A DNA stretch of 64,000 nucleotides from Liquorilactobacillus nagelii DSM 13675 (GTDB taxonomy: Bacteria > Bacillota > Bacilli > Lactobacillales > Lactobacillaceae). Positions 44,835 through 61,189 of the stretch are shown here, in pieces. The notes under the pieces are model-generated. The model made no database searches. It saw nothing but the letters and a program-made list of their open reading frames with translations, and was not told where the DNA came from. The position numbers and the translations under genes are program-made. The DNA lies in contig NZ_CP049304.1 of assembly GCF_019444005.1 (NCBI RefSeq), positions 1,860,001 through 1,924,000 on the forward strand, written 5' to 3'. The first letter of the stretch is position 1. Each line of letters starts with the position of its first letter.

Positions 44835-44866
44835 TTCACACTTTCTTCAAAAAGTCAGGCTATATT
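44835..44866 (+). promoter_or_regulatory. Response-regulator-type promoter of small RNA A
   Basis: TTCACA (44835-44840), 5 bp, TTCAAA (44846-44851), 9 bp, TATATT (44861-44866). The hexamer spacing and distance to the -10 are the same as in the promoters at 57649 and 61065; there is no normal -35. Confidence 0.65.
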
Positions 44867-44872
44867 ATAACC

Positions 44873-44973
44873 ATAGTCTTGAAAAACAAAAACAAGCCAA
44901 GACTTAAATTCATATCTTTCTCTACTCCCTTTTTCTCTGCAGCCACTCCCCCAAGGACTGCAGAGTTTTTTTG
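44873..44973 (+). ncRNA. Putative C-rich small RNA A
   Basis: A predicted transcript of about 100 nt in the 334-bp gap between divergent genes. It has a 5' hairpin (AGTCTTG/CAAGACT, 44875-44904), a pyrimidine-rich single strand with CTACTCCC, and a terminator hairpin CTCTGCAG/CTGCAGAG (44935-44965) whose loop carries ACTCCCCCAAGGA, followed by seven T. No open frame with a ribosome site is present. The exposed C-rich segments could pair with Shine-Dalgarno sequences. It shares promoter architecture with two other loci in the window. Confidence 0.6.
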
Positions 44974-45057
44974 AGCAAAAATGTTGCTTTTTTTGTAACA
45001 AGTGTTATAGTTGAAACATAGAAATTAACTTACAAATAATAAGGAGTGACGTTTTCA

Positions 45058-45612
45058 ATGACAAAAACCGTTGGATTAATCGTTGGGAGTCTTAGAAAGA
45101 ATTCATTTACTCGGGCAGTAGCTGAACAGATGGCCGCACAATTACCAGATGGCTTTACTGTTAAACCAATCGATATTAGCAAATTGGATCTTTATAATCA
45201 GGACTTGGATGATGAGAATCGTGCACCACAGAGCTGGACAGATTTTCGTAATGAAATGAAAAATGTCGATGCAGTTATTTTTGCAACCCCAGAATATAAC
45301 CGTTCTGTTCCGGGAGCTTTGAAAAACGCTTTGGATGTTGGATCTCGTCCTTATGGTGAAAGTATCTGGGATCAAAAACCAGCAATTATCTTGAGTGTTT
45401 CGCCTGGTGCCATTAGTGGCTTTGGCGCTAACCATCACCTGCGTCAGTCATTAGTTTTCTTAAACATGCCAACAATTCAACAACCCGAGTTGTATATCGG
45501 TAATGTCACAAATATCTTAGATGACAATTTGAAGATTACAAACGAAGGCACTTTAAAATTCTTAGGTGGCGCAATGCAAACTTTCGCCGAATTTATTAAT
45601 AAATTAGCATAA
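45058..45612 (+). CDS. NADPH-dependent FMN reductase / quinone reductase
   Basis: A 184-residue flavodoxin-fold protein with the N-terminal phosphate loop GSLRKNSFTRAVA and the conserved TPEYNRSVPGALKNALD block of the NADPH-dependent FMN reductase family (azoreductase/chromate-reductase type). It reduces FMN or quinones with NADPH in the cytoplasm, and might supply flavin to the divergent luciferase-like gene, though this is only positional inference. ATG 45058 follows AAGGAG. Confidence 0.9.
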   Translation: MTKTVGLIVGSLRKNSFTRAVAEQMAAQLPDGFTVKPIDISKLDLYNQDLDDENRAPQSWTDFRNEMKNVDAVIFATPEYNRSVPGALKNALDVGSRPYGESIWDQKPAIILSVSPGAISGFGANHHLRQSLVFLNMPTIQQPELYIGNVTNILDDNLKITNEGTLKFLGGAMQTFAEFINKLA

Positions 45613-45645
45613 ATTAGTGGCATCACACCCTCTTAACTAAAAAAC

Positions 45646-45686
45646 GGGCAATTCACAGAACTAATTGTGAGTTGCCCATTTTTTTA
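45646..45686 (+). terminator. Terminator after the FMN reductase
   Basis: GGGCAATTCACA pairs with TGTGAGTTGCCC (one G-T pair) and is followed by seven T. Confidence 0.9.
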
Positions 45687-45841
45687 TATGAATTAACAAA
45701 TTATTAATGTTGTTTTAAAATTCCAAAAAACTTTCTTATTACATTATCGGCCGTAATAATTGTATTTTCAATCCACAAAAATCATTAACAGTTGGTTTTC
45801 CTAACTACACCAACTAATTTACAAAATTACAAGCGCTTTAA

Positions 45842-45870
45842 TTGAAGAAAAATCGCCTGTCACGTACAAT
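45842..45870 (+). promoter_or_regulatory. dps promoter
   Basis: TTGAAG (45842-45847), a 17-bp spacer and TACAAT (45865-45870), with GGAGG 11 bp downstream. Confidence 0.65.
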
Positions 45871-45894
45871 TAATAAAGAAGGAGGTTTCGTTAA

Positions 45895-46377
45895 ATGATG
45901 AAAAAAGAATATAACTTTCCAGTTACTTTGCAACACCTTAATCAGCTGGTAGCTGATTTAAGCCAGCTTCAGGTCAACATTCAACAAACTCATTGGTACA
46001 TGCGCGGACCTGAATTCTTCCACCTCCATCCTCTAATGGATGATTATAATGATCAATTAGCAGAACAATTAGATACTATTGCTGAACGTATTATTGCCCT
46101 AGGTGGTTCGCCGTTATCAACTACCCATGAATTTATTGAACATACAAAATTACCTGATGAAAAAATCACTTGGGGGCAATATAAGCTGCCCGAGTTGATG
46201 GAACGCTTATTGGATCAATTCAAATATTTACGCGATCAGTATCAACAAGGGATTAAAATTACCGATGAAGAAAAAGATTTCCCGACGCAAGATATTTTGA
46301 ATGGCTACAAGAGTGACTTAGATAAAATTATTTGGATGATTAGCGCTTATCTCGATCGTGCACCATTAGAAAATTAA
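45895..46377 (+). CDS. dps: Dps ferritin-like DNA-protection protein
   Basis: A 160-residue Dps. The inter-subunit ferroxidase ligands are at the standard places: His33 (QTHWYMRGP), His45, Asp60 and Glu64 (LDTIAER). It forms dodecamers that oxidise and store iron, detoxifying H2O2. The N-terminus is short and little charged, so DNA binding is uncertain. ATG follows GGAGG; a second ATG immediately after could also be used. It has its own promoter and terminator. Confidence 0.94.
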   Translation: MMKKEYNFPVTLQHLNQLVADLSQLQVNIQQTHWYMRGPEFFHLHPLMDDYNDQLAEQLDTIAERIIALGGSPLSTTHEFIEHTKLPDEKITWGQYKLPELMERLLDQFKYLRDQYQQGIKITDEEKDFPTQDILNGYKSDLDKIIWMISAYLDRAPLEN

Positions 46378-46389
46378 CATTTTTCAGTA

Positions 46390-46425
46390 AAAGGCTGTGA
46401 CAAAAACATTTGTCCGGCCTTTTTA
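46390..46425 (+). terminator. Terminator after dps
   Basis: AAAGGC and GCCTTT with inner GACAA/TTGTC form a stem, followed by five T. Confidence 0.82.
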
Positions 46426-46510
46426 GTTGTACATAATCAATGGCTAAATAATTGTCTTATTGAACGGCTCACAAAAAGTTTTAAGCGTTCTAATTTAGCA
46501 CAGATTGCGC

Positions 46511-46587
46511 TATAATAACTTTGAATTATTCTTTTCTAAGAACTATTTTATAAGTAAAGTCCGCCATGCCAATTGCGTTCAGCGGAC
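46511..46587 (+). promoter_or_regulatory. lutABC promoter and 5' hairpin
   Basis: TATAAT (46511-46516) has no recognisable -35, suggesting activator dependence. GTCCGC (46559-46564) pairs with GCGGAC (46582-46587) in the leader, 25 nt before the lutA start. Confidence 0.45.
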
Positions 46588-46612
46588 AATTATTTCCCTG
46601 GAGGTGTCTGTA

Positions 46613-47380
46613 ATGAAAGTTGCAATTTTTTCAACCTGTATTGTGGACTTAATGTTCCCTAATGTGGGGCAAGCGATGGTTGAAGTGCTTGAGAGATTTG
46701 GTTGTGAAACCAGCTTCCCTAACAAACAAATCTGTTGCGGCCAGCCTACATATAATAGCGGCTACCACAAAGAAACCCAGAAAGTTTTCCATAATGAGGT
46801 TGATGCTTTAATGAGTGCTGATGCTGACTATATTGTAGGACCAGCAGGATCTTGTGTGGCTATGTTGCGCGAGTATAAAAACTTGCTCAAAGATGATCCA
46901 AAATATGCTGATAAAGCGGCAGCAATGGCTGACAAAACATATGAATTTTCGCAATTTCTCTATCGCGTATTAGGTGTTCGCAATGCTGGTGCTCAATTAG
47001 ATGCTGTAGCAACTTATCACCGTTCCTGCCACATGACCCGCCTGTTACGAGAACGAGAAGCCCCTTATGAACTACTAGCTAATGTCAAAAATCTGCAAAT
47101 GGTTCCTTTACCGCGAGCGGAAAACTGTTGCGGTTTTGGTGGCACTTTCTCGGTTAAAGAACCCCAAATTTCTCGACAAATGGTCGATGAAAAAGTTAAC
47201 GATATCCTCAGTACCCAGGCCTCAGTTTTAATTAGCGCTGACCCTTCCTGCTTGATGAATATTGCCGGTCGTTTCAGCCGTCGAAATGAAAAAATCAAAA
47301 TTATGCATATTGCTGAAGTATTAAATCATAACGTTGACCCAGCTCGAATTCGCTTAGCTGATCAACCGGCAAATGTCTAA
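46613..47380 (+). CDS. lutA: L-lactate oxidation subunit LutA (Fe-S, CCG domain)
   Basis: A 255-residue protein of the LutA/LldE family, with two CCG domains: CCGQPTYNSGYHKE near residue 42 and ENCCGFGGTFSVKEP near residue 175, plus YHRSCHMTR. These bind non-cubane 4Fe-4S clusters and pass electrons in the LutABC complex, which oxidises L-lactate to pyruvate. The start is ATG 46613 after GGAGGTG; the frame is open further upstream without a ribosome site. It is first of three tightly spaced genes. Confidence 0.93.
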   Translation: MKVAIFSTCIVDLMFPNVGQAMVEVLERFGCETSFPNKQICCGQPTYNSGYHKETQKVFHNEVDALMSADADYIVGPAGSCVAMLREYKNLLKDDPKYADKAAAMADKTYEFSQFLYRVLGVRNAGAQLDAVATYHRSCHMTRLLREREAPYELLANVKNLQMVPLPRAENCCGFGGTFSVKEPQISRQMVDEKVNDILSTQASVLISADPSCLMNIAGRFSRRNEKIKIMHIAEVLNHNVDPARIRLADQPANV

Positions 47381-47392
47381 GGAGGCAGCAAA

Positions 47393-48886
47393 ATGGCAAC
47401 ACTTTCAACCAGTAATGAACCATTCTTAACTAGAATTAAAGAATCAGAAGATGACAAGTTCATGCAAAAGTCAGTCGCTAAAGCGCAAGATGCGCAATGG
47501 GAAAAGCGGCCAGCTTCACGCAAAGAACTTGGGCATTGGGAAGATTGGCGCAATTTAGGTGAACAAATTCGCCAACACGTCATTAAGTACTTGCCAGACT
47601 ATCTGGAAGAATTCAGCGACAATGTCGAAAAACGCGGCGGCCATGTTTTTTTTGCTCAAACAGACAAAGAAGCTGTTGACTACATTAAAAAAATTGCCCA
47701 GCAAAAAAAAGCTCACAAAATTGTTAAATCCAAATCGATGGTTACAACTGAAATTAATTTGGATAAAGAATTACTAAAGTTACCAGATACTTCAGTCTTA
47801 GAAACTGACTTAGCAGAATTTATCCTTGAAGAGGATAATTGGGATGAACCGACACATATTGTTTTTCCAACCTTGCATAAAAATCGTGATCAAATTCAAA
47901 AAATTTTTCAAAAACTTGGTTATAAGGGAAGCAATGAACCGGGGGAAATGGCCAAATTTGCTCGTCATTACTTACGACAATCCTTCTTAGAGGCAGACTT
48001 AGGCATTACCGGCTGCAACTTTGCAATTGCCGATCAGGGCATGATTAATTTAGTTACTAATGAGGGAAATGCTGACTTAACCATGGCCATCCCTGACACT
48101 CAAGTTGTCGTAATGGGAATGGAACGAATTGTCCCTAGTCTAAAAGAAGCCGAAGTTATGGATAACATGCTTTCGCGTAGTGCAGTAGGTCAAAAACTCA
48201 CTAGTTATTGTACTTTTGCCGGCCCACAAACAGCCGATGAAAGTGATGGTCCCAAAGATTTCTACGTTGTCATCTTAGATAATGGGCGTTCTAAAGCCTT
48301 GGGAACCGACTTTGAGCCAGCTCTTCAATGTATTCGTTGTGGTTCTTGTCTAAATGTCTGCCCTGTTTATCGACATATTGGCGGCCATGGCTATGGTTCA
48401 ATTTATCCCGGGCCAATCGGAGCTGTTTTATCACCAATTTTAGGTGGCTACGAAAAATTCAAAGATTTGCCGTTTGCTTGCAGTTTAAACGCTGCTTGTA
48501 CTGACACCTGCCCGGTAAAAATTCCGTTGCATAAACTACTAATCAAGCACCGAGAAGTTATGATGGATAAAATGAAACTTGACCATAGTTTTAATAATGT
48601 TTTGCTCAAAGGGGCCGGTGTTGCAACGGCTGCTCCAATCGTCTTTAACATCGCCTTAAAAGGTGCTTATCTCGGTTCAGCACCTTTAGCCAAAAAGAGC
48701 CAAACATCCGTTGATAACTTCTTCAATTTTGGTCATATTGAATGGGCTCCAAGCTTAGCAAAAGGGTGGACGGATGTTCGTTCTTTACCACGACCAGCTA
48801 AAAGTTCTGAAAATTTCCGCAGCTGGTATAAAAAGCATCAAGCTGCTAAAGAAGCTCAGGTAAAGGAGGAACATAACAATGGATAA
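47393..48886 (+). CDS. lutB: L-lactate oxidation subunit LutB
   Basis: A 497-residue iron-sulfur protein with an N-terminal LUD domain and a C-terminal ferredoxin part: CIRCGSCLNVCPVYRHIGGHGYG (4Fe-4S cluster 1) and CTDTCPVKIPLHKLL (second cluster), then an Arg/Lys-rich tail. It is the electron-transfer core of LutABC. ATG follows GGAGG, 12 bp after lutA, and the 3' end overlaps lutC by 8 bp. Confidence 0.95.
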   Translation: MATLSTSNEPFLTRIKESEDDKFMQKSVAKAQDAQWEKRPASRKELGHWEDWRNLGEQIRQHVIKYLPDYLEEFSDNVEKRGGHVFFAQTDKEAVDYIKKIAQQKKAHKIVKSKSMVTTEINLDKELLKLPDTSVLETDLAEFILEEDNWDEPTHIVFPTLHKNRDQIQKIFQKLGYKGSNEPGEMAKFARHYLRQSFLEADLGITGCNFAIADQGMINLVTNEGNADLTMAIPDTQVVVMGMERIVPSLKEAEVMDNMLSRSAVGQKLTSYCTFAGPQTADESDGPKDFYVVILDNGRSKALGTDFEPALQCIRCGSCLNVCPVYRHIGGHGYGSIYPGPIGAVLSPILGGYEKFKDLPFACSLNAACTDTCPVKIPLHKLLIKHREVMMDKMKLDHSFNNVLLKGAGVATAAPIVFNIALKGAYLGSAPLAKKSQTSVDNFFNFGHIEWAPSLAKGWTDVRSLPRPAKSSENFRSWYKKHQAAKEAQVKEEHNNG

Positions 48887-49586
48887 GGCCAATCGCGAAG
48901 CTTTCTTAAATAACATTGCTACTCATGCTAATCGGCCACGTCACCAACTGGTTAATCATCCATTCAAGCCTTTAAATAATCTGCCCGAGTCAACACTCTC
49001 CGGCAAGACACAAGATCAACTGTTAGAAATTGCTCGTCAAAGTAGCGAAGAAGTTCACGTTGATTTTCGGACAACTACTAAAGCAGAATTGACCAATATG
49101 ATTAATAGTTATTTGCAGCATAAAAACATCCAACATTTGATTCTGCCAACTACCAATCTTTGGCAGCAATTCGGATTAACCGACTGGCAGCAACAACGAA
49201 CTACAGAACATACTAATTATTGGGAGCCCGGTGCTGACCGCCAGATCAATATCCAACGGGCCCAAAATGCTGATGGCGCAATTGGTTTTGCCGATTTTCT
49301 TTTAGCTGAATCAGGAACGATTGCTGTTGCCACCGTTCCTGGTCAGGGACGGGCGTTTCACTTTTTGCCAACACATTATCTCAGCATTATTCCTAAGAGT
49401 CGAATTGTTCCACGTAGTCGTCAAGCGATGGTTTATTATGAAGAAAAAATAAAAAATGGTGAACTATCAACATCCAATATCAATTTAATTACGGGTCCAT
49501 CTAACTCTGGTGATATTGAAATGGTGCTAGTTGTTGGTGTTCATGGGCCATTAGATATGACCTACGTTGTTGTTGAAGATTTGTAA
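48879..49586 (+). CDS. lutC: L-lactate oxidation subunit LutC
   Basis: A 235-residue LUD-domain protein, with GFADFLLAESGTIAVATVPGQGR and PRSRQAMVYYEEK blocks and the C-terminal TGPSNSGDIEMVLVVGVHGP motif of the LutC family. It has no cluster-binding Cys. Translationally coupled to lutB. With LutA and LutB it allows reuse of L-lactate, typically in the absence of preferred sugar. No lldP permease or lutR regulator is adjacent. Confidence 0.93.
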   Translation: MDKANREAFLNNIATHANRPRHQLVNHPFKPLNNLPESTLSGKTQDQLLEIARQSSEEVHVDFRTTTKAELTNMINSYLQHKNIQHLILPTTNLWQQFGLTDWQQQRTTEHTNYWEPGADRQINIQRAQNADGAIGFADFLLAESGTIAVATVPGQGRAFHFLPTHYLSIIPKSRIVPRSRQAMVYYEEKIKNGELSTSNINLITGPSNSGDIEMVLVVGVHGPLDMTYVVVEDL

Positions 49587-49636
49587 TTTAATTAATTAAA
49601 CACATAAGACAAGTTGTGAAATTAATGAATACCTCC

Positions 49637-49677
49637 AAAAAGAGCAAGCTAATTGAAAACTTAGCTTGCTCTTTTTG
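49637..49677. terminator. Bidirectional terminator between lutC and the PNAG operon
   Basis: A perfect stem AAAAAGAGCAAGCTAA / TTAGCTTGCTCTTTTT with an 8-nt loop; serves convergent transcripts. Confidence 0.92.
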
Positions 49678-49751
49678 TGTAACAATTAAACTAATTACTT
49701 TTTTTTACACCTTGCCGCGTTTATTAACCAAGAAGGATCATCTTACAGCAT

Positions 49752-51203
49752 TTACTTAACCAATAAAAGATTAAATGCTGACCATCCCTTCTTAACAAAA
49801 TTTTCTGCCAGCTGGTCCAGTGGATCTCTTTTGAAATGTTTAACCGGTACTGTCAAATCTAAAATAACACCTTCACTGTGATAATATTTCGCCATCCAAG
49901 CATTTTCCCAGTGTTCATTAGGTCGGTTGCCGCTCTCTAGGTAGGCTGTTCCCTTATAGGGATTATACTCTGTTACAACGCCTTTAATTCCAGGAACTTT
50001 TACCACTTTATGGGGGTTAGCCTCGATAATCTCAATTTCCGTTTTAAAACTATCAGCAGCGGCTAAAAATTCATTCGTCAATTTTAAGTATCCTGGAACT
50101 GTCACTGCCAAGCAAACCAGATTCAATCCAATAATTACTGTCAGTGTCAATTTGGGCAAATACTCCCGTAAAAATGCCAGCAGCGTTACCACACAAATTA
50201 TTCCAAAAATTGTAGCGCCATACCAAGTTCTGCCTGGTAATTGTGGTGATAATACGAGAGCCCCAACTGAAAGTCCAGCTGCACCAAAAGCCAATAGGCT
50301 AGTTAACAGTAAATCATTAGTTTTAAATGAAAATTGATGCTTTTTTATCAAATAACCGCTAATTAAAAATAAAATAGCGATTAAACCTAATAAATAACCA
50401 CTATAATTAATCGTCTTCCACAAGATATTTAAAAATTGAAAGGAGTGACCTTTTTGATTCAATGCTTCACCACTATTGTTCAACAGCATGATTAGCATGC
50501 CTAAAATTGCTGCTAAAAGGCCCCAATACTTATAACTTTGCCGGTGATTTAAATCGTTTGCTAGATAACTTACATAAGCCAAAATTACCACAACCGGACC
50601 AATATTTTCATTAGTAGCACCTGATAAAAAGCCTAAGAAAATCATCAAAGCTGTAAAAAATCGCGGCATCTGGAGCTGATGTTCTTTAATGTTCCAGCGA
50701 AAGGGCCATAGAAAAGCCAGATAAATTGGTGTCATCCAAAGATAATTACATGCACCTGACATCCAAAACATCGTATGACCAAAGTCTGGAATTAATAATC
50801 CCAGCAAAAGGTAAGTTAACAACAATGATAATGAGGAAATTTCCGTAAATTTTCTTACCACAAATAGATTGATTAGTAATCCAACGACAATAAAAACTAG
50901 ACTATTAGCAAAATTAAAAACTATTTTTGGAAACTGCATTAATGCCTGAATGAAAAAATCACCAACAAAACGACCATTCCAAGTTTGGGTATGCACTACA
51001 ACCGACACTAACAAATCCCAAATATTGTGAATACTTTTAAGCTGTGTTGCTGGCCACTCACCATTGTATTGAAAGTGATAAAGAAAATCATCGCCGATAA
51101 AACCAATTAATTTATTCAAGTGATAAAAAAAATAGCCAGTTAATAAACAAATCAACCACAGCAGTATAATTTTTACAGTTTTAAATAACCTTACTTTAAC
51201 CAT
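49752..51203 (-). CDS. Multi-spanning membrane protein of the polysaccharide operon (GT-C-like)
   Basis: A 483-residue protein with about eleven TM segments. After TM1 it has an extracytoplasmic loop with GDDFLYHFQYNGEWP, an acidic pattern like that of GT-C glycosyltransferases and DUF6056 proteins, and a C-terminal soluble tail. It is the last gene of the ica/pga-like operon, where staphylococci have the acyltransferase IcaC; no acyltransferase signature is seen here. ATG 51203 follows AAGGAG and overlaps the deacetylase gene by 13 bp. Function is inferred as polymer modification or export. Confidence 0.72.
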   Translation of the reverse strand: MVKVRLFKTVKIILLWLICLLTGYFFYHLNKLIGFIGDDFLYHFQYNGEWPATQLKSIHNIWDLLVSVVVHTQTWNGRFVGDFFIQALMQFPKIVFNFANSLVFIVVGLLINLFVVRKFTEISSLSLLLTYLLLGLLIPDFGHTMFWMSGACNYLWMTPIYLAFLWPFRWNIKEHQLQMPRFFTALMIFLGFLSGATNENIGPVVVILAYVSYLANDLNHRQSYKYWGLLAAILGMLIMLLNNSGEALNQKGHSFQFLNILWKTINYSGYLLGLIAILFLISGYLIKKHQFSFKTNDLLLTSLLAFGAAGLSVGALVLSPQLPGRTWYGATIFGIICVVTLLAFLREYLPKLTLTVIIGLNLVCLAVTVPGYLKLTNEFLAAADSFKTEIEIIEANPHKVVKVPGIKGVVTEYNPYKGTAYLESGNRPNEHWENAWMAKYYHSEGVILDLTVPVKHFKRDPLDQLAENFVKKGWSAFNLLLVK

Positions 51204-52087
51204 TTTAGAACTCCTTGTTTCCAAGCTTTATCAGTGACCATAATTCGTGGAAGAGCTCCTTGCTTAGTAGCCGGATCATCATCGATAATTCCGGTATCCA
51301 GCGAAAATGTAAGATACCCATGCTTTTTTAAGTACTTTTGAATACGATTTGTTGCTTCCCCATAAGGATAAGCGTACAAATTAGACTTTAAATTTAATTC
51401 AGTACAAAATTTTTTCTGAGCTGTTCGCAAATCCTTTTTAAAAGCTTGGTAATTTTCTGGCAGCATCAAAGCTGGCTTATTTTCTACTAAATAGTGCAGA
51501 TTATTAGTATGTAATCCAAAAGTGACTAATTTCGATTTTTTCTTGAGTGCCTTAATTTCTGGCCAATCTTCCATCTGACTGCCACGATTATATTGATTAG
51601 TTTGTCCGGTAATAATAAATAAAGTATACGGCAGCTGCTCTTTTTCCAAATATGGAATTGCATTTTCAAAAACTGTTTGATCACAATCATCAAAAGTGAT
51701 GACAACATATTGGTGCGAAAACTTTTTATTAGTTTTAAGCATTTTTTCAGCTGTTTTCATTGAAATAATCCTGACATGATGTTTTTTTAAAGTTGCCAGC
51801 TGGTGTTTAAATGTTGGTAACGTTACACTATATTCATGAATCTGATTATTATTAGAGAGTCCTTTAGTAACAGTCGTTAACCAGTTACTCTTAATTACTC
51901 GGTGATAACACAAAATTTGAATTCCATTACGTTTTTCTTGGCTTTTTGCCAATTTTCCAGTTGAAATTTCTCTTTTACTTTCATTTTCAGCAATTTTTTG
52001 TGCGTAAGCCAATCGAACACTGATCAATACGGCAATGATAAAAATCAATATATAAACTAAATGCCAACTTTTTTTAATGTTTTTCAT
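51191..52087 (-). CDS. Polysaccharide deacetylase, IcaB/PgaB-like
   Basis: A 298-residue membrane-anchored NodB-family deacetylase. It has an N-terminal TM anchor (residues 9-28), ILCYHRV, then the metal-binding ITFDDCDQT and the later HTNNLHYL and YPYGEA motifs. In staphylococci IcaB removes some N-acetyl groups from poly-N-acetylglucosamine (PNAG) outside the cell, which the polymer needs for adhesion. Its position between IcaD-like and the multi-spanning protein gene supports the same job here. Confidence 0.87.
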   Translation of the reverse strand: MKNIKKSWHLVYILIFIIAVLISVRLAYAQKIAENESKREISTGKLAKSQEKRNGIQILCYHRVIKSNWLTTVTKGLSNNNQIHEYSVTLPTFKHQLATLKKHHVRIISMKTAEKMLKTNKKFSHQYVVITFDDCDQTVFENAIPYLEKEQLPYTLFIITGQTNQYNRGSQMEDWPEIKALKKKSKLVTFGLHTNNLHYLVENKPALMLPENYQAFKKDLRTAQKKFCTELNLKSNLYAYPYGEATNRIQKYLKKHGYLTFSLDTGIIDDDPATKQGALPRIMVTDKAWKQGVLKWLK

Positions 52088-52096
52088 GGACTTTTT

Positions 52097-52345
52097 TTAC
52101 CCGACTATCGTTCGGTTAATAACTGCTAAAAAATTAATGGCAATGATAATCAAACCTATTCCCTTGATTGTCTGAACTAAATTTCCCCAATTACAATTAA
52201 AAATTATATATTGGTCAACAAAGGTTTCATTATGAACATGCAACAAAAACAAACTCAACAAGCCAAATAACATGATTGGTGTAAGCGCCAAAATAAGATA
52301 ACCCAAAAATTTTAACGCAGTTTCCCACGATCTGAACTTTCCCAT
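52097..52345 (-). CDS. IcaD/PgaD-like small membrane subunit
   Basis: An 82-residue protein with two TM segments (about 14-35 and 60-78), the size and topology of IcaD, which assists the PNAG synthase. Sequence similarity is not obvious to me; the call rests on topology and on its place, overlapping the synthase gene by 34 bp and directly before the deacetylase gene. Confidence 0.65.
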   Translation of the reverse strand: MGKFRSWETALKFLGYLILALTPIMLFGLLSLFLLHVHNETFVDQYIIFNCNWGNLVQTIKGIGLIIIAINFLAVINRTIVG

Positions 52346-53514: not shown

Positions 53515-53748
53515 CAATCTCACCCCTTTTATACAAAGCGTCATTTATTATTCTTTTTAAATAGAAAACATTTAAAAAAATTGATAAGCAAACAGTTCGC
53601 TAACAAAAGCAACAATCAAAAGCTCATTTAGTTACGATTATTTTAATTACTCATTAGTAATAACCGTTTTAAGATACTTTTGTAACTTAAAACTGCCTTC
53701 GAAAAAAGTTTAACATATTACCCACATTTAATAAAGTATTTATTTCCA

Positions 53749-53783
53749 CAAAAAAATCGCTGAAAATATTAATCTTTTTCAGC
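53749..53783 (-). terminator. Terminator after the fructosamine-kinase-like gene
   Basis: GCTGAAAA pairs with TTTTCAGC; the minus strand then reads GATTTTTTT. It stands between the gene and the PNAG promoter region. Confidence 0.82.
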
Positions 53784-53815
53784 AATTATTTAGTAAAGCT
53801 CTTCAATTTTTCTAA

Positions 53816-54676
53816 TCAGTTATATGAACAAATTTTTTGCAATAATCGCTGGACACTTGCAGCATAACTGCTGCCAAATTTATTCAAATGAACCATTAAA
53901 TAGTACAATTGATAAAAATCCAACCGCTGGTGATATCCTGAATTCAATGGCAATACTTGTTGATATCCAGTATAAAACTCATTTGTAAAGCCGCCAAAAA
54001 CAGTTGATACTCCTAAGTCAAATTCGCGATCTCCGTATAAAGCAGCTGGATCAATTAATGCTGGCCGACCATCTGTTAAGAAAACAAAATTTCCTGCCCA
54101 AAGATCACCATGCAGTAAAACCGGCTGAGATTGATGCTGCTCTAAAGTGGTCATGATTATTTTTCGTGCCACGTTATACAACTGCTCTTCTGGATTACCC
54201 CACAACCGATCATGCTCCAATTGCCATGCCAACTTATCTAACCGTCGCTGAACAAAAAGTTCAATCCAACTTGCTGTCCAAGAATTATCAAAAGATATAC
54301 TCGTTCCGACATACGGGTAATCATACCCAAATTTACCATTAGGACTTAGGGTTTGATGAAGTTTAGCCACTAATTCACCTAGTTGAAATTGATTACCAGT
54401 TCGCTGGGTTGCTAAAAAGTCCAACAATAAATAAGCATCCCCTTGAATTCTCCCGCTAGCCAAGACGCGCGGTGCTAAAATTCCAGCTTGTTGAAAATCT
54501 CGCAAACCGGCTATTTCACCTTGATAGAAACTTTGTGGTTGCTGTGGTTGAACTAATAAAAAATAATCCTTACTACTAGTAGTTAGCCGATATGCCTGAT
54601 TAACATCGCCCCCACCTACTCGCTGACAGGAGACTATTTTTTTAATTGGTAATTTGCTTAACCATTTTCCATCCAT
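53816..54676 (-). CDS. Fructosamine kinase family protein
   Basis: A 286-residue APH-fold small-molecule kinase. The catalytic loop is HGDLWAGN and the metal-binding segment is LIDPAALYGDREFDLG, as in fructosamine-3-kinases; N-terminal GGGDVNQAYRL is the nucleotide loop. Bacterial members phosphorylate ribulosamines or fructosamines on glycated proteins or free ketosamines for their repair. It has its own terminator and no obvious partner genes. It is divergent from the aldehyde dehydrogenase. Confidence 0.87.
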   Translation of the reverse strand: MDGKWLSKLPIKKIVSCQRVGGGDVNQAYRLTTSSKDYFLLVQPQQPQSFYQGEIAGLRDFQQAGILAPRVLASGRIQGDAYLLLDFLATQRTGNQFQLGELVAKLHQTLSPNGKFGYDYPYVGTSISFDNSWTASWIELFVQRRLDKLAWQLEHDRLWGNPEEQLYNVARKIIMTTLEQHQSQPVLLHGDLWAGNFVFLTDGRPALIDPAALYGDREFDLGVSTVFGGFTNEFYTGYQQVLPLNSGYHQRLDFYQLYYLMVHLNKFGSSYAASVQRLLQKICSYN

Positions 54677-54819
54677 GAGATCGCTTCCTTTTTGATGAAA
54701 CTACTATTTATTTCATTAAATTCAAACTAATCAATTGCAATTAAAAAAGTTACGGATATATAATAAGTGCGTACCAATTAAATACTATGTGCGGACCAGT
54801 TAAGGAGGAACAAATTTTT

Positions 54820-56223
54820 ATGGCATACAAAACAATTAATCCATATAATAATGAATTAATCAAAGAATATCCTAACGCTACCGATGCTGAAATTTCAAAT
54901 GCTTTAGCTCTAGGAGACAAACTTTATCATCAGTGGAAAAAAGAACCTGTCAGTTCACGTCAGACTAAGCTTCATGAAATTGCTGATTTAATGCGGCAAA
55001 AAAGTGAAGAATTAGCCAAGGTCTTAACTGTTGAAATGGGTAAATTAATTGGTGAAGCTCGTGGAGAAGTTGAACTTTGTGCTTTGATTGCCGATTATTT
55101 TGCTGACCACAGTGAGACCGGCTTACAGCCAACAACGATCAAAACTTCAGCCGGCAATGCTCAAGTTGTTAATGAGGCCGTTGGTGTTTTGATGATGGTT
55201 GAACCATGGAACTTTCCTTATTACCAAATCATGCGAGTCTTTGCACCGAACTTTATGATTGGTAATCCAATGGTATTGAAACATTCTTCCAACACTCCAA
55301 CTTCAGCCGTTGAGTTTGAAAAAATTATTAAAGAAGCTGGCGCTCCTGATGGCAGTTTAACCAACCTATTCTTAAGTCATGATCAAGTTGACCAAGTTAT
55401 CGCTGATCCACGGATTCAAGGTGTGGCTTTAACCGGTTCTGAACGTGGTGGTAGCTCAGTTGCTCAAGCAGCTGGTAAATACTTGAAAAAATCTTCAATG
55501 GAATTAGGTGGCAGCGATGCTTTTGTCGTCTTAGGTGATGCTGACCTTGACCAAGTTATCAAGACAGCAGCACGGGCACGAGCTTATAACGCTGGACAAG
55601 TTTGCACTTCTTCCAAACGTTTTATCGTTGCTGATAATTTATATGATGAATTCTTGAAACGCTTAGCCGCTGAGTTTGCTAAATTAAAACCCGGCGATCC
55701 ATTAGATGAAAAAACAACTTTGGCACCATTATCTTCAGCTAAGGCAAAACAGACTCTGCAAAAACAAGTTGATGATGCAGTTACTGCTGGTGCTAAAGTT
55801 TATTTTGGCAATCAACCAATTAATTTGTCCGGCCAATTTTTCCAACCAACAATTTTAACTGATATTAAACATGATAATCCAGCTTTCTATCAAGAAATGT
55901 TTGGTCCAGTTGCTCAAGTTTACCGTGTAAGCTCCGAGTCAGCTGCGATTGAATTAGCCAACGATTCTCATTATGGTTTAGGTGGAATTGTCTTTAGCGG
56001 CGATGCAGCTCATGGTAAAAAAGTTGCTGAACAAATCGAAACCGGTATGGTTTTCGTTAATAGTCCATTATATACCTTACCAGAATTGCCATTTGGCGGC
56101 ATCAAGCGTTCTGGCTACGGCCGTGAAATGAGCAGCATTGGTTTGAAAGCTTTCGTCAATGAAAAGCTGATTGTAACTAATGATCACCCTGACTTTGAAA
56201 ATGTGAATGGTGGTTTATTCTAA
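54820..56223 (+). CDS. NAD(P)-dependent aldehyde dehydrogenase (succinate-semialdehyde-type)
   Basis: A 467-residue ALDH. Catalytic Cys262 is in GQVCTSSKR and the general base Glu228 in MELGGSDAF; PWNFPYYQ and GERG-like cofactor elements are present. The closest class is NAD(P)-dependent succinate-semialdehyde dehydrogenase, but substrates of these enzymes in lactobacilli are often different. The start is ATG 54820, after AAGGAGG; the frame is open upstream without a ribosome site. Single gene with a strong terminator. Confidence 0.9.
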   Translation: MAYKTINPYNNELIKEYPNATDAEISNALALGDKLYHQWKKEPVSSRQTKLHEIADLMRQKSEELAKVLTVEMGKLIGEARGEVELCALIADYFADHSETGLQPTTIKTSAGNAQVVNEAVGVLMMVEPWNFPYYQIMRVFAPNFMIGNPMVLKHSSNTPTSAVEFEKIIKEAGAPDGSLTNLFLSHDQVDQVIADPRIQGVALTGSERGGSSVAQAAGKYLKKSSMELGGSDAFVVLGDADLDQVIKTAARARAYNAGQVCTSSKRFIVADNLYDEFLKRLAAEFAKLKPGDPLDEKTTLAPLSSAKAKQTLQKQVDDAVTAGAKVYFGNQPINLSGQFFQPTILTDIKHDNPAFYQEMFGPVAQVYRVSSESAAIELANDSHYGLGGIVFSGDAAHGKKVAEQIETGMVFVNSPLYTLPELPFGGIKRSGYGREMSSIGLKAFVNEKLIVTNDHPDFENVNGGLF

Positions 56224-56245
56224 AACTAAAAATTATCAATTGAAA

Positions 56246-56284
56246 AACAGCATTGCAAGTCGTAATTGCAATGCTGTTTTTTTC
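56246..56284 (+). terminator. Terminator after the aldehyde dehydrogenase
   Basis: CAGCATTGCAA pairs with TTGCAATGCTG, flanked by A5 and followed by seven T. Confidence 0.92.
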
Positions 56285-56370
56285 TTGCTTGAACTTTTTT
56301 AAACAAAATCTTGGTAGCTAATCAATTTGAAGCATATAATAACAATATCTAATTGATTGGGGATGGTTTT

Positions 56371-57597
56371 TTGCTGGCAAAACTCAACTTGAAAAAACTA
56401 CCAGAATGGCAACGTAACTTAGCTGTTTTATGGTTAGGTTGCTTCGTAGCCGGGGTGGGGTTCAGCGAAATTGCTCCCTTCCTATCACTTTACGTCGAAC
56501 AATTAGGCAGCTTTGACAAAAGCACTCTTTCACTGTATAGCGGGATTACTTATGCTGTGACTTTTTTTGTTGTAGCAGTCGTTTCGCCTTTATGGGGAAA
56601 ATTAGCTGATCGACGTGGCCGCAAGTTAATGCTGCTGCGCTCTTCACTAGGACTGGCAATTGTGATTGGTGCTTGTGGATTTGTTCATCAAGTCTGGACT
56701 TTAATTTTGCTGCGATTCCTTCAGGGATTATGTGCTGGTTATATTCCAAACGCAACGGCTTTAATTGCAACTGAAACCCCTAAAGCTAAAAGTGGCTCTG
56801 CTCTGGGAATCCTAACAACGGGCTATGTTTCAGGAAATTTGATTGGACCAATTATCGGTGGTGTTTTAGCACAAGTCTTTTCAATTCGTATGACTTTTGT
56901 TCTAACTGGCGGCCTACTGCTGATAGTCTTTTTTCTTAGTTGGTTTGGAGTTCACGAAGATTTCAAACCAGCGGCTGTTCCTAAAACCCAGCATCAACCT
57001 TCATTATTACAACAAGTTGCTGATCCACGAACTATTATTGTTCTATTATTTTCAACAATGATTATTCAAATGGGCAACAATTCAATTACTCCAATTATCA
57101 GTTTGTTTGTCAAAGAACTAATGCATGGAGTCGGGCCCATTACAATTGCTGCTGGTGTAATTGCTGCTTTGCCTGGAATTTCCACCTTAATTTCGGCCCC
57201 CCGGCTGGGTGCTTGGGGGGATGAACATGGCCCAGGCAAAGTATTGTTATTTGGTTTTTTATTTGCCATCGTAATGTATATTCCACAAGGGTTAGTAACA
57301 AGCGTCTGGCTTCTTGGCATATTACGTTTCATGATTGGAATCTCTGATGGAGCTCTTTTTCCAACCGTTCAAACCTTGTTAGCTAAAGGTACTCCACAGC
57401 ATTTAACCGGAAGTATCTTCAGCTGGAACCAATCATTTCAAGCACTTGGCAGCATGCTAGGTTCCTTATTAGGTGGACTTGTCTCAAACTGGTTTGATTA
57501 TAATGGTGTTTTTAGTTTCACCGCCTTGTCCTTGACACTAAACTTATTGTTAATTCTTTGGCTAATCCCCGCTTTAAGGCCCAAGTTTCAGCATTAA
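56371..57597 (+). CDS. MFS multidrug efflux transporter (DHA1 type)
   Basis: A 408-residue MFS protein with twelve TM segments, DHA1/MdtG-like. Motif A is GKLADRRGRK (loop 2-3), with motif C-like LTTGYVSGNLIGPIIGG in TM5. It probably exports drugs or other amphiphiles. The start used is TTG 56371, 5 nt after GGGGATGG; another in-frame TTG at 56353 lies before that site. Single gene, followed by the small-RNA locus B. Confidence 0.88.
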   Translation: MLAKLNLKKLPEWQRNLAVLWLGCFVAGVGFSEIAPFLSLYVEQLGSFDKSTLSLYSGITYAVTFFVVAVVSPLWGKLADRRGRKLMLLRSSLGLAIVIGACGFVHQVWTLILLRFLQGLCAGYIPNATALIATETPKAKSGSALGILTTGYVSGNLIGPIIGGVLAQVFSIRMTFVLTGGLLLIVFFLSWFGVHEDFKPAAVPKTQHQPSLLQQVADPRTIIVLLFSTMIIQMGNNSITPIISLFVKELMHGVGPITIAAGVIAALPGISTLISAPRLGAWGDEHGPGKVLLFGFLFAIVMYIPQGLVTSVWLLGILRFMIGISDGALFPTVQTLLAKGTPQHLTGSIFSWNQSFQALGSMLGSLLGGLVSNWFDYNGVFSFTALSLTLNLLLILWLIPALRPKFQH

Positions 57598-57648
57598 TTG
57601 CGGAGTTTAATAATTTCTTGATAATTTTAAAAGAATTCCAAGTTTAAC

Positions 57649-57680
57649 ATCACACTTTATTCACATTTATCCAGTAAAGT
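57649..57680 (+). promoter_or_regulatory. Response-regulator-type promoter of small RNA B
   Basis: ATCACA (57649-57654), 5 bp, TTCACA (57660-57665), 9 bp, TAAAGT (57675-57680): same architecture as at 44835 and 61065. Confidence 0.6.
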
Positions 57681-57686
57681 AATCCT

Positions 57687-57843
57687 TGTAACCTGATAAA
57701 ACTTTTCATTTCTTTCCCTTTGATTTTTCGCTAAGATCTCCCCCCAAGCAGATCTTAGCGCTAGTCATATTACAGAAACTCCCCCCAGTTTCTGCAGTTA
57801 CAGTTGCGGATAAAATTTCAATTTTATCCGCAACTTTTTTTAT
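57687..57843 (+). ncRNA. Putative C-rich small RNA B with two C6-loop hairpins
   Basis: A predicted transcript of about 155 nt. It has a pyrimidine-rich leader, hairpin 1 with a perfect 10-bp stem (57729-57738 with 57751-57760) and a loop holding CCCCCC, hairpin 2 with a perfect 8-bp stem (57773-57780 with 57787-57794) whose loop is just CCCCCC, and a 14-bp terminator stem (57803-57816 with 57821-57834) with T7. No open frame is supported. The exposed C6 loops would suit pairing with Shine-Dalgarno sequences. The gap it occupies is 390 bp with no gene. Confidence 0.68.
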
Positions 57844-57989
57844 ATTTGAATACTTTCTTGTTATAATAGTTGTAGAGCTATTAGCACTTTGCTAGATTCG
57901 GAGTTTACCTATAATTGACTGTAAAACCATTAATAGTATAATGAAACTAGCTAATCTTTCCGGAAATGCAAATATAAGGAGTAAGTTAA

Positions 57990-58847
57990 ATGACAGCATC
58001 CATCAAAATCCTAACTGATTCTTCGGTACAATTAACTGCCGCGGAAATCAAAAAATATCAGATTGAAATTGTGCCGCTTTCTGTTGAAATCGACGGCCAA
58101 AGCTTTGTTGACGGCGAAAACATTTCACGACCTGAGTTAATTGATAATTTGCGGGCTGGAAAATATCCTAAAACTAGTCAACCACCTTTAGGACGTTTTG
58201 TCGAAGCTTATGATCGGTTGGGAGCTGATGGAAGCGAAGTTATCGCAATTGTTTTGTCTGATGTTCTAAGCGGTACTTTTACAACTGCTCAAACTGCAGC
58301 TACAATGAGTAATACCAAAGTTACTGTTATTAACAGCAAGTCAACTGATCGTGGGCAGGCTTTCCAAGTCTTAGCTGCCGCTCAGGATGCGCAAGCCGGT
58401 AAAACAGTAGCAGAGATTCAACAACATTGCCAAGAAGTTCATCAACGAACCCGTATTAATGTTTTGATTGATAATCTTGATTGTTTAGTTAAGGGTGGCC
58501 GACTGAGTCGCTTTGCCGGGGCAATCACTAAACTAATTAACTTAAAAGTAATTGTGCAGTTGAACGAAAATAGCCTAGATGTTGTCGTTAAAGGCCGTAG
58601 CCGCAAAACTTTTGTTAAGTTCTGCGAAGGACTTGCTGAGCGACATCAAAATAACCCGATTCAGGATCTTTCGTTATCAAATGTTGGTACTGATCCTGAA
58701 TTCCTAGAACGTTTAAAAAACCTGATCTTGCCAACAGCTAATCAGACTAACTACTTGGCTGAATTGACTAGCCCAATTATTATGACTCATACTGGCTTGA
58801 ATGCTGTCGGTGTGATTACTCTTTCAGAAAAACCTGATGTAGACTAA
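57990..58847 (+). CDS. DegV family fatty-acid-binding protein (FakB-like)
   Basis: A 285-residue DegV protein: ILTDSSVQL at the start, the conserved TSQPPLGRFVE lipid-binding segment, SGTFTTAQTA and the late VKGGRLSR block. DegV/FakB proteins bind a fatty acid and present it to the kinase FakA for phosphorylation and incorporation into phospholipids. No fakA is adjacent. ATG follows AAGGAG. Ends at a perfect terminator. Confidence 0.92.
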   Translation: MTASIKILTDSSVQLTAAEIKKYQIEIVPLSVEIDGQSFVDGENISRPELIDNLRAGKYPKTSQPPLGRFVEAYDRLGADGSEVIAIVLSDVLSGTFTTAQTAATMSNTKVTVINSKSTDRGQAFQVLAAAQDAQAGKTVAEIQQHCQEVHQRTRINVLIDNLDCLVKGGRLSRFAGAITKLINLKVIVQLNENSLDVVVKGRSRKTFVKFCEGLAERHQNNPIQDLSLSNVGTDPEFLERLKNLILPTANQTNYLAELTSPIIMTHTGLNAVGVITLSEKPDVD

Positions 58848-58858
58848 CTGAAATAACT

Positions 58859-58895
58859 AAAGGGAGCAAATCGTTAATTACGATTTGCTCCTTTA
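58859..58895 (+). terminator. Terminator after the DegV gene
   Basis: AAGGGAGCAAATCG and CGATTTGCTCCTTT form a near-perfect stem (one mismatch at the outer end); T-tract is short. Confidence 0.82.
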
Positions 58896-59127
58896 GTTAA
58901 ATTTTATTATTTTGCACCAGTTATTTGATTAAAGTAAAGTGCCCATACGTGTTATAGATTTAATATAAAAAAGATGAATAAAAGTTTCCAACCCTGTTAT
59001 ATCTAAAAATGAGCGCCCAAAGCATTTGATTGTGATTAACACCGCACCTGGATTTATTATCTTATCATAACACTTGCTGGCTAACCTTTTTTAGACCAAA
59101 TCAATTAAAAATATATTTTTTTATACT

Positions 59128-60747
59128 TTAATTTTTAACTTCCAGGTGCCGTCGACCTACTAACCAAATTAAAAATAAAGCTAATAACGCTTCAATTACA
59201 ATCAAGACTCCTCGATTTGCCAAAGCAGATCCGCCAAGATAAACCCCAACAATCACCGCGACAACAACTAAAGTAATCATTATTACCCACTGGCCACGAC
59301 TAAAGGCTTGACCATATTTGTTTTCACGACGAGTTATTAGTGGCAGAATAGCCCCCAAACCGATTAAAACAGTTATCGCAACAATATTAATGATCAATTC
59401 ATACCACCAAGTAGAACTAAATTCAGTCACATCCTGTGGGGCAATTCCAAAAGCAGTCGCGATCGCTGTCACTGCTAAAGCCCAAAAGCCAACTAACCAA
59501 GCTAATTTGTCATTTTTAATAAAAACGTAGCTTGAAGGATACTTAACTGGGTTTTTACGCACACGCATAAAAGCATAAAAGATCCAGCAAGTTACTCCCG
59601 GCGAAATAATTCCGTTTAAATTCAATAACCAATTAAAAATATCATTCATATCTGGTAGAAAAATTCCCAGCAACAAAATAAATCCCGATAAAACACAGGT
59701 CAGCAAGTAGCCATTAACTGGTAAACCGGCTGCATTAGTTTTGCGTAAGAACTTGGGCATATAATGCTCTCCGGTATCTGAAATCAGCATTCGTGTCATT
59801 GCATCTAGTAACACAGCTAATAAAGCAATCAAATAAAAGACTTCTGTCCACGCAAATAAGTACATAAACAAATTACCGACATGGTATTGCTGACCAAGGG
59901 CTTGGAAAGCATAGTACGAACCGTTCATTTTCAAATCATTGGGCAAATGGTGGGCATTAAAGAAAATTCCCAATGAAAACGAACCAAAAATTGTTAAAAA
60001 GGCGGTCATTCCAACCAACATCAGCATTGATTTAGGAAACTCAGTTTGCGGCTTCTTCATCTTCGTAACAAATGGTGCAATTAGCTCACAACCATTAACT
60101 GCATAAATCAGCAATCCTACTGTGGTCAGATACTTCAAATCAAATTTAGGTATGATCGCTCCTAAATTCATTGGTTGGGTTGCGATATGACCACCAAGCG
60201 CTAATGAAGAAATTGACATAATTACAAATAAAACGGTCATTCCAAACATTGCAATTCCGCCAATCATACTCAATAACTCTAATGATCGCTTAAAGCGTGA
60301 TTGAACTAAAATGAAAACAGCAAAAGTCAGTAACGTCCATAAAGCAAACTGACTGTTGGAAATTGCATCCTGAAACTTACTACTGCCAGTAATCGCCCAA
60401 CCAATACCAACAACAACCGAATTAGCTGTATCAACTACATACGGAATGGATGCTGCCCAGTAAGTCCAAGCAGTAAAGTAACCTAAGAACTCACCATTTG
60501 TTCCGCGGATCCAAGAACTCAAACCACCGCCTTCATGATTAAAAATCGAACCCAGTTGTCCAACCATTAAAGAGTAGGGAATTACATATAAGAACAACAT
60601 CAAAATCCAAGAAGTAATTACACCCATTCCTTGATTCTTAAAATTATAAATTAAATCATCAAAACCAATGACTGTTACAAAACACATTAATGCCAATATC
60701 GGCCAACTGATATAATGCTTGGTTTCTACAGTTGATAAATCATTCAT
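59128..60747 (-). CDS. APC superfamily amino acid permease (GadC/YjeM-like)
   Basis: A 539-residue transporter with about thirteen TM segments; TM1 FVTVIGFDDLIYNFKNQGMG and TM6 GLLIYAVNGCELIAPFVTKMKKP fit the glutamate:GABA antiporter branch of the APC family. The substrate is unknown: no decarboxylase gene lies nearby. It begins 4 bp after the stop of an 85-codon frame on the same strand, so translation may be coupled to it. ATG follows GAGGTG. Confidence 0.87.
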   Translation of the reverse strand: MNDLSTVETKHYISWPILALMCFVTVIGFDDLIYNFKNQGMGVITSWILMLFLYVIPYSLMVGQLGSIFNHEGGGLSSWIRGTNGEFLGYFTAWTYWAASIPYVVDTANSVVVGIGWAITGSSKFQDAISNSQFALWTLLTFAVFILVQSRFKRSLELLSMIGGIAMFGMTVLFVIMSISSLALGGHIATQPMNLGAIIPKFDLKYLTTVGLLIYAVNGCELIAPFVTKMKKPQTEFPKSMLMLVGMTAFLTIFGSFSLGIFFNAHHLPNDLKMNGSYYAFQALGQQYHVGNLFMYLFAWTEVFYLIALLAVLLDAMTRMLISDTGEHYMPKFLRKTNAAGLPVNGYLLTCVLSGFILLLGIFLPDMNDIFNWLLNLNGIISPGVTCWIFYAFMRVRKNPVKYPSSYVFIKNDKLAWLVGFWALAVTAIATAFGIAPQDVTEFSSTWWYELIINIVAITVLIGLGAILPLITRRENKYGQAFSRGQWVIMITLVVVAVIVGVYLGGSALANRGVLIVIEALLALFLIWLVGRRHLEVKN

Positions 60748-60751
60748 TTTT

Positions 60752-61009
60752 TCACCTCAAAGATTTATTTTTTTGCATATTAAATAAATCTTTTTCCGGT
60801 GGCTTTTCGACTTTTTTATTTCTCAGGTGAAATTGATCTAATTTAGTTAATTGCTCATAAAAAGTCCCGATCAACTCCACTAGCGAAAATCGCCAACTAG
60901 TAAAACTCGTTAAACAGTTTTTCAACCATATTGAAAAAAACGTTCTTAATTTTTTAAAATTAAGAGCGTACCACGATCTAACTCGTTTCCAATCGTTTAA
61001 CCGATTCAC
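60752..61009 (-). CDS. Small hypothetical protein, 85 aa, upstream of the permease
   Basis: A frame from GTG 61009, preceded by ACGGAGGAAAAA, ending 4 bp before the permease start. The product is rich in Lys, Arg, Trp and Phe (NDWKRVRSWYALNFKKLRTFF), amphipathic, with no clear TM segment. I do not recognise the family. It could be a real small protein or a translated leader of the permease. Its promoter must lie near 61010-61100, back to back with that of small RNA C. Confidence 0.5.
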   Translation of the reverse strand: MNRLNDWKRVRSWYALNFKKLRTFFSIWLKNCLTSFTSWRFSLVELIGTFYEQLTKLDQFHLRNKKVEKPPEKDLFNMQKNKSLR

Positions 61010-61064
61010 TTTTTCCTCCGTTAATCTACTAACCAATATCTCTTTACAAATTCTTAAGTAAATA

Positions 61065-61096
61065 TTCACATAAAATTCACAAGTGTCGTTTAAAAT
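61065..61096 (+). promoter_or_regulatory. Response-regulator-type promoter of small RNA C
   Basis: TTCACA (61065-61070), 5 bp, TTCACA (61076-61081), 9 bp, TAAAAT (61091-61096). This is the most regular of the three copies: two perfect hexamers in direct repeat with an 11-bp period. Confidence 0.68.
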
Positions 61097-61102
61097 ATCA
61101 AG

Positions 61103-61189
61103 ATGTAACCTGATATTAAACAATTTTTCATTTACTCCCCCTATGGTAAATGAATCTCTCCGAACTTTTAAAAGTTCGGAGTTTTTTTG
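61103..61189 (+). ncRNA. Putative C-rich small RNA C
   Basis: A predicted transcript of about 87 nt. It has a hairpin CATTTAC/GTAAATG (61129-61152) with loop TCCCCCTATG and a terminator CTCCGAAC.../...GTTCGGAG (61158-61181) with seven T. Its leader TGTAACCTGATA is shared with small RNA B. No open frame is supported. The loop plus the next base is complementary over 11 nt to the ribosome site of the dehydrogenase at 21731. Confidence 0.65.

Follow-up and report, generated by a model that had tools for sequence, protein, structure and literature searches.

LhrC-like small RNAs in Liquorilactobacillus nagelii and other Lactobacillaceae, and their likely control by a PieR-type response regulator

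Three intergenic loci (A, B, and C) on the plus strand of a 64-kb stretch of the Liquorilactobacillus nagelii DSM 13675 genome, called the window below, each have a pair of TTCACA-like hexamers close to a -10 box, a C-rich sequence, and a terminator. What do they encode, what might turn them on, and what might they do? A first-pass annotation of the letters read them as a three-member family of small RNAs (sRNAs). The family is real but far larger than three: a covariance model of the transcript (R1) has matches at E ≤ 0.05 in 84 of 397 Lactobacillaceae genomes and 12 of 40 genera, and A, B, and C belong to this large Lactobacillaceae sRNA family. The best joint explanation, which we hold to be probable, is that they are paralogous, trans-acting, LhrC-like sRNAs, activated by a PieR-type regulator and acting by blocking translation.

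Promoters, transcripts, and their distribution

The common architecture is (T/A)TCACA-N5-TTCA(C/A)A-N9-(-10) with a terminator following; coordinates were re-read directly from the letters, and the positions and spacings given in the first-pass annotation are exact. Promoter A (44835..44866) has TTCACA at 44835-44840, TTCAAA at 44846-44851, and, after 9 nt, TATATT at 44861-44866. Promoter B (57649..57680) has ATCACA (57649-57654), TTCACA (57660-57665), 9 nt, and TAAAGT (57675-57680), and promoter C (61065..61096) has TTCACA twice (61065-61070 and 61076-61081), 9 nt, and TAAAAT (61091-61096). All three are also found by a scan allowing up to three mismatches. A second genome, G004, holds orthologues of A, B, and C together on one contig (at about 157.9, 170.7, and 179.5 kb) with boxes and stems conserved: promoters A and B are kept, and that of C reads TTCACA-N5-TTAACA-N9-TAAAAT.

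The transcripts, all on the plus strand, were delimited from sequence and predicted folds. sRNA A (44873..44973, with an inferred start about 7 nt past the -10 and the end placed at the T run) carries a CU-rich CTACTCCC at 44922-44929 and a terminator stem at 44935-44942/44958-44965 with the loop CCACTCCCCCAAGGA; its G004 orthologue is near-identical. sRNA B (57687..57842) begins with TGTAACCTGATA (57687-57698) followed by CTTTTCATTTCTTTCCC, complementary to a Shine-Dalgarno sequence and AUG; it has predicted hairpins at 57730-57759 and 57773-57794 with CTCCCCCC in or at the loop, and a terminator at 57802-57835 that in the G004 orthologue is changed on both sides of the stem. sRNA C (61103..61188) shares TGTAACCTGATA with B, as had been noted, at 61104-61115, and continues with a predicted hairpin of TTCATTTAC (61127-61135) and GTAAATGAA (61146-61154) around the loop TCCCCCTATG and a terminator at 61158-61181. 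R1 scores C at 64.6 bits, C being a member of its training set. CU-rich sites are presented by a single strand and the terminator loop in A, a single strand and two loops in B, and one loop only in C, where LhrC has three such motifs (in a hairpin loop, a single strand, and the terminator loop).

Other parts of the first-pass description stand with amendments. A scan finds the terminators of B and C; that of A, a hairpin with a T run, comes from direct reading and is not in the scan list. The claim that there is no open reading frame holds for B and C; in a search for frames of at least eight codons, A alone has one (31 codons, starting with TTG, no Shine-Dalgarno sequence), which is not convincing and would be shifted by an indel in the G004 orthologue. 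Folding predictions leave the C runs largely unpaired, as proposed, except that one C of B's first loop lies in an isolated pair and a CUC of A pairs with bases beyond the T run.

How specific is the box pattern? In the window, the three-mismatch scan has exactly three matches, A, B, and C, against a mean of 0.21 in 100 shuffles, none of which reached three. Random genome-wide occurrence, which the first-pass annotation had named as counting against a family, is seen in part: the whole genome has nine matches against five for a reversed control, with C and A the best two. B, at three mismatches, ties with six others, so that it is not singled out by its boxes alone; it is set apart by its transcript and its conservation. 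Two further box sets lie upstream of frames named by eye: ATCACA-N5-TTCAAA-N9-TATATT before a membrane glycosyltransferase-like frame in this genome (L028; G000:C1:743404, minus strand), a possible regulon member, and TTCACA-N5-TTCAAA-N9-TAAAGT before an acyltransferase-3-like frame, an envelope-type gene, in another (L016, G011).

Across Lactobacillaceae, the exact pattern of boxes plus C run occurs in 93 of the 397 genomes and 22 of the 40 genera, against seven genomes for the reversed control; 93 is an upper figure, since several matches are coding (e.g., L035, L036, L044-L046, L048). In the loci read, the same kind of RNA recurs: a short leader (GTAACCTGATA, GTACCTAATA, ATACCTAATAACAA, and similar), C-rich loops, and a terminator, in many cases with CTTTTTCATTTACTCCCCC within a hairpin. 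The RNA is kept between genomes while the surrounding DNA differs. R1 was built from 21 aligned transcript parts with the promoter excluded, all 21 being Lactobacillaceae loci found by box searches; among its matches L390, L399, and L405 look false, and L267 lies antisense to L256.

Rfam has no match in the window, and none of 19 family loci has a match at the gathering score. A search of the open-access literature, most subscription papers being outside its scope, found no report of such an sRNA family, in agreement with the first-pass annotation: in the available text of PMC4627465 the mentions of LhrC and Lactobacillus are unrelated to one, that of PMC13109727 does not contain LhrC, and that of PMC4211561 deals with csRNAs only. 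A genome of another Lactobacillales family (G034) has a terminated C-rich RNA (CTCCCCCT, CTTCCCC) after TTCACA-N3-TTCAAA (L004), possibly one more LhrC-like RNA in which the boxes are spaced differently.

Since R1 excludes the promoter, boxes could be sought at matches found by transcript only, namely the 35 absent from the box-pattern listing; further Levilactobacillus copies, an antisense duplicate in G005, and G215:C19 (the box-less L268) were left out. With N5 and N9 fixed and up to two mismatches, 12 of the 35 carry a box pair, against 0.04 expected from shuffling. Spacers from 4 to 15 other than 9 yield none to three of the 35, and gaps from 2 to 9 other than 5 yield none to two. Related genomes thus keep the spacing of the boxes, and the box is a strong yet not universal feature of the family. 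Four more of the 35, from one genus, have boxes 190-207 nt upstream of the match; for the L387 copy these are an array of 11-bp repeats ending TTCATA-N9-TATTAT. Between array and match, L387, L392, L397, and L398 (g4 genomes) contain GAGGTG-AACGA-ATG AAA CGG/TGG closed by TAA or TAG: a frame of three codons behind a strong Shine-Dalgarno sequence, with a stop that is kept though its letters change. It might be a leader frame, or might act as a decoy for the C-rich loops.

The loci could conceivably not be sRNAs at all, being instead leaders or attenuators of downstream genes, or chance clusters of boxes. Each does lie upstream of some gene, and a degV-like frame starts about 150 nt past the end of B. 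A terminator closes each unit, however, the RNA persists where its flanks do not, and the box geometry is far above chance; we find this reading scarcely credible.

Relationship to LhrC and to streptococcal csRNAs

The first-pass annotation had likened the design to that of Listeria LhrC and the streptococcal csRNAs, which is supported, and had seen no direct sequence match to LhrC, which is not: R1, made from Lactobacillaceae transcripts only, finds Listeria LhrC genes. At E ≤ 0.01 it has matches in eight of 295 Lactobacillales genomes, five of Lactobacillaceae and three of another family. All seven matches in the latter three overlap Rfam LhrC (RF00616), four of these reaching the gathering score and three falling below it with E ≤ 7.3e-15, and no genome outside Lactobacillaceae and the LhrC group is found. 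A laxer search (23 chosen genomes, E up to 1) gives 24 matches in five genomes of the LhrC group; 17 of these loci were compared with Rfam, and 15, spanning all five genomes, are LhrC, while L274 (E 0.37) and L275 (E 0.47) are not.

Like the lactobacillus RNAs, the LisRK-controlled LhrC is multicopy, with a leader, a hairpin having a UUUUUCAU arm and a CU-rich loop, and a further CU-rich stretch or terminator loop. The lactobacillus RNAs differ in their longer C runs, in their likely regulator, and in staying below the Rfam gathering score, because of which they are filed here as LhrC-like rather than LhrC.

Such likeness could also have arisen twice: selection to mask Shine-Dalgarno-AUG-AAA-AAG would yield UUUUUCAU..CUCCC in any RNA, and the Lactobacillaceae and Listeria families would then be separate in origin. 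This is compatible with the regulator and mechanism favored here. In its favor, the similarity to LhrC beyond the anti-start element, which is the core in common, is weak (p 0.004-0.19 for the leaders); the failure to reach the gathering score fits it as well. Against it stand the common layout (leader, hairpin, CU-rich stretch, terminator), the alike A/C-rich leaders, and the finding of LhrC and nothing else by R1 outside Lactobacillaceae at E ≤ 0.01. Convergence seems to us rather unlikely. Two LhrC promoters of a Listeria-type genome (L265 and L270, G031) read TTCTAA-N5-TTCACA-N5-TTCACG, near the lactobacillus box, a sequence hinting at an older control common to the two groups of RNAs.

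The csRNAs, controlled by CiaRH, are also present in several copies, with an N5 direct repeat just upstream of the -10 and a terminator within 250 nt, according to PMC3091779. There the CiaR repeat is TTTAAG at 10 nt from the -10, whereas A, B, and C have TTCACA-type hexamers at N9 and do not fit the csRNA pattern; that paper also reports no CiaH in Lactobacillus.

Candidate regulators

An 11-bp direct repeat had suggested an OmpR-type response regulator, and this can now be given a name: judging from promoter sequences, it is likely to be the counterpart, by orthology, of PieR in Listeria. The L. nagelii genome has eight OmpR-type response regulators. The PieR-type gene (G000:C1:1360431-1361153) lies near genes for an L,D-transpeptidase and for a sulfatase-domain protein resembling lipoteichoic acid synthase; PieR is its best NCBIfam name, below the cut-off (292 of 450 bits), and its closest named match is from Liquorilactobacillus mali (83%).

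Promoters of 25 regulators in four genomes were scored for hexamers sharing the phase of the sRNA boxes, against 200 mononucleotide shuffles. All four promoters of the 241-amino-acid PieR-type regulator have them (0 of 200 shuffles), compared with two of 21 for other OmpR-type regulators: a VanR-like one (L162, G066; 0 of 200), where cross-regulation by the PieR-type system is possible, and L156 (0.025). One of the four genomes, G054, is without an R1 match. By genus, all 12 with R1 matches carry the regulator, and none of the 13 regulator-less genera in the sample has a match (Fisher p 0.003), with the qualifications that genera are not independent and that the 12 include at least one genus (g9) whose R1 match looks false, though it has members found by boxes.

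The Listeria-type genomes offer a second view. In four of these, the PieR orthologue is 52-57% identical (the G568 alignment including one in-frame stop), and in all four the divergent permease gene has TTCAYR-N5-TTCAYA-N9-(-10): TTCATA-N5-TTCATA, TTCATA-N5-TTCACA, TTCATG-N5-TTCATA, and TTCACA-N5-TTCATA, with 9 nt between each pair and its TAATCT or TAAGAT. The permease has MacB/FtsX domains (L292) and by its type and place is presumably Lmo1506. Boxed FtsX-type permease genes also lie about 3.5 kb (G040) and 6 kb (G023) from the regulator orthologue. Among six Listeria-type rotamase (PrsA-type) loci, one has TTCATA-N5-TTCATA-N5-x-N5-TTCAAA-N9-TATACT (0 of 200 shuffles) and two score 0.025. 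The L. monocytogenes PieRS regulon thus resembles the lactobacillus system in its orthologous regulator and in a neighboring permease promoter with the same N5/N9 boxes. PieRS is reported to control PrsA1, PrsA2, Lmo0442, Lmo0881, Lmo1505, and Lmo1506 (PMC12234432); sRNAs are not part of that account, the available text of the paper containing none of sRNA, small RNA, binding site, or consensus.

Could the same sRNAs, with the same mechanism, answer instead to the LisR orthologue (L068), as LhrC does in Listeria, through boxes that are a diverged LisR site? The regulators L068, L157, L158, and L159, which we take to be LisR orthologues of the four Lactobacillaceae genomes scored, have promoters with no in-phase boxes (p 0.175-0.995). 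The LisR element is mapped upstream of -53, in place of which the lactobacillus RNAs have TTCACA-N5-TTCACA 9 bp from the -10. In its favor, Listeria-type LhrC promoters also have hexamers at 11-bp spacing (TTCTTA-N5-YTTTCA-N5-TYCACA), and LhrC is LisR-dependent (PMC4132741). On this evidence we doubt that LisR is the activator.

The hexamers also fit the Bacillus subtilis PHO box (TTHACA-N5-TTHACA), by which the RNAs would answer phosphate limitation via PhoP. In the 9-kb pst region, however, the sole box pair at up to two mismatches sits inside a coding frame, and the phoP-like promoter has p 0.42 for in-phase boxes. The PhoP reading was rejected on these two grounds as very improbable.

Proposed mechanism and implications

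If the PieR-type regulator is the activator, events might run as follows. Activated probably by cell-envelope stress, it would bind the TTCACA repeats 11 bp apart, with the proximal edge 9 bp from the -10, and would drive transcription in place of a -35 box. The short terminated RNA would expose C-rich loops along with a hairpin whose 5' arm complements a Shine-Dalgarno sequence, start, and first codons; this hairpin would open onto mRNAs and block ribosome entry, as in LhrC, giving less of selected envelope or secreted proteins.

The complement of the 5' arm is GGGGGAGU-AA-AUG-AAA-AAG, i.e., a Shine-Dalgarno sequence, a spacer, a start, and Met-Lys-Lys, a beginning common among exported proteins. 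In the 5' stem, the 5' arm is nearly invariant and the 3' arm varies only between U-A and U-G where paired, as expected if the 5' arm doubles as a binding site. No pair in this stem shows two-sided covariation; its support comes from consistent pairing (93.6% of cells, against 42-52% when slid) rather than from compensatory change. In LhrC, stem A opens, and its 5' side and loop pair with the G-rich lapB start region, according to PMC4132741, which also describes lactobacilli as without Hfq. Because the 5' arm and loop complement a Shine-Dalgarno sequence and AUG AAA AAG, and LhrC pairs with the lapB start, translation blocking by analogy with LhrC is likely, and probably Hfq-independent.

A number of results, beyond the weak likeness to LhrC outside the anti-start element, weigh against this explanation. 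At the level of the boxes, all ten Levilactobacillus matches read (E ≤ 0.05) are without them, though the genus has the regulator, and so is the second Lactiplantibacillus dongliensis copy (L268); a weak L. brevis match (L271, E 0.5) combines perfect TTCACA boxes at N9 with a loop lacking a C run (TTCACC). At the level of the regulator, the VanR-like promoter scores as well as the PieR-type ones, and in G556, a genome with LhrC, even the best PieR match (43%) is not a close orthologue. General autoregulation was rejected as too patchy: only two of 23 further Lactobacillales PieR-type promoters (L164-L186) reach p ≤ 0.01, and one of 16 additional ones (L287) p < 0.05. The other three of the six Listeria-type rotamase loci lack boxes, as do all seven Lactobacillaceae prsA promoters (starts assigned by script), so that prsA was rejected as a common target in this family. 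At the level of targets, pairing of the seeds is better at 51 translation starts in the window than within coding sequence (B, p 1e-8; C, p 3e-8), but part of this is composition, because shuffled seeds also gain at these starts, which were picked for a Shine-Dalgarno-like motif. The 18-nt complement of sRNA C, at up to three mismatches, occurs at 47 places in six Liquorilactobacillus genomes, including one self-match per genome, against 39 for the reversed control. Of 25 such loci that were checked, one of them a self-match, nine stand at the start of a frame longer than 100 codons, including RelA/SpoT and DUF2207 starts in L. nagelii; there being no excess over the control, neither these nor any other specific targets are claimed.

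A wider picture can be offered tentatively, as one that may well be wrong: an old anti-start-codon sRNA family spanning Listeria and the lactobacilli, with its regulators swapped. Listeria would use LisR, most Lactobacillaceae genera with matches a PieR-type regulator, and the box-less main Levilactobacillus copy some other input (the weaker L. brevis one keeping its boxes), and one response regulator would drive both a membrane transporter and a multicopy sRNA arm. The boxes would also be a candidate DNA site for PieR, the available text of the regulon paper giving none. If the proposal is true, lactobacilli gain an sRNA arm for envelope stress in which regulator, box, and mechanism can each be named, and LhrC-like RNAs under another two-component system in food bacteria would be a case of an sRNA family that keeps its mechanism while its regulator changes.

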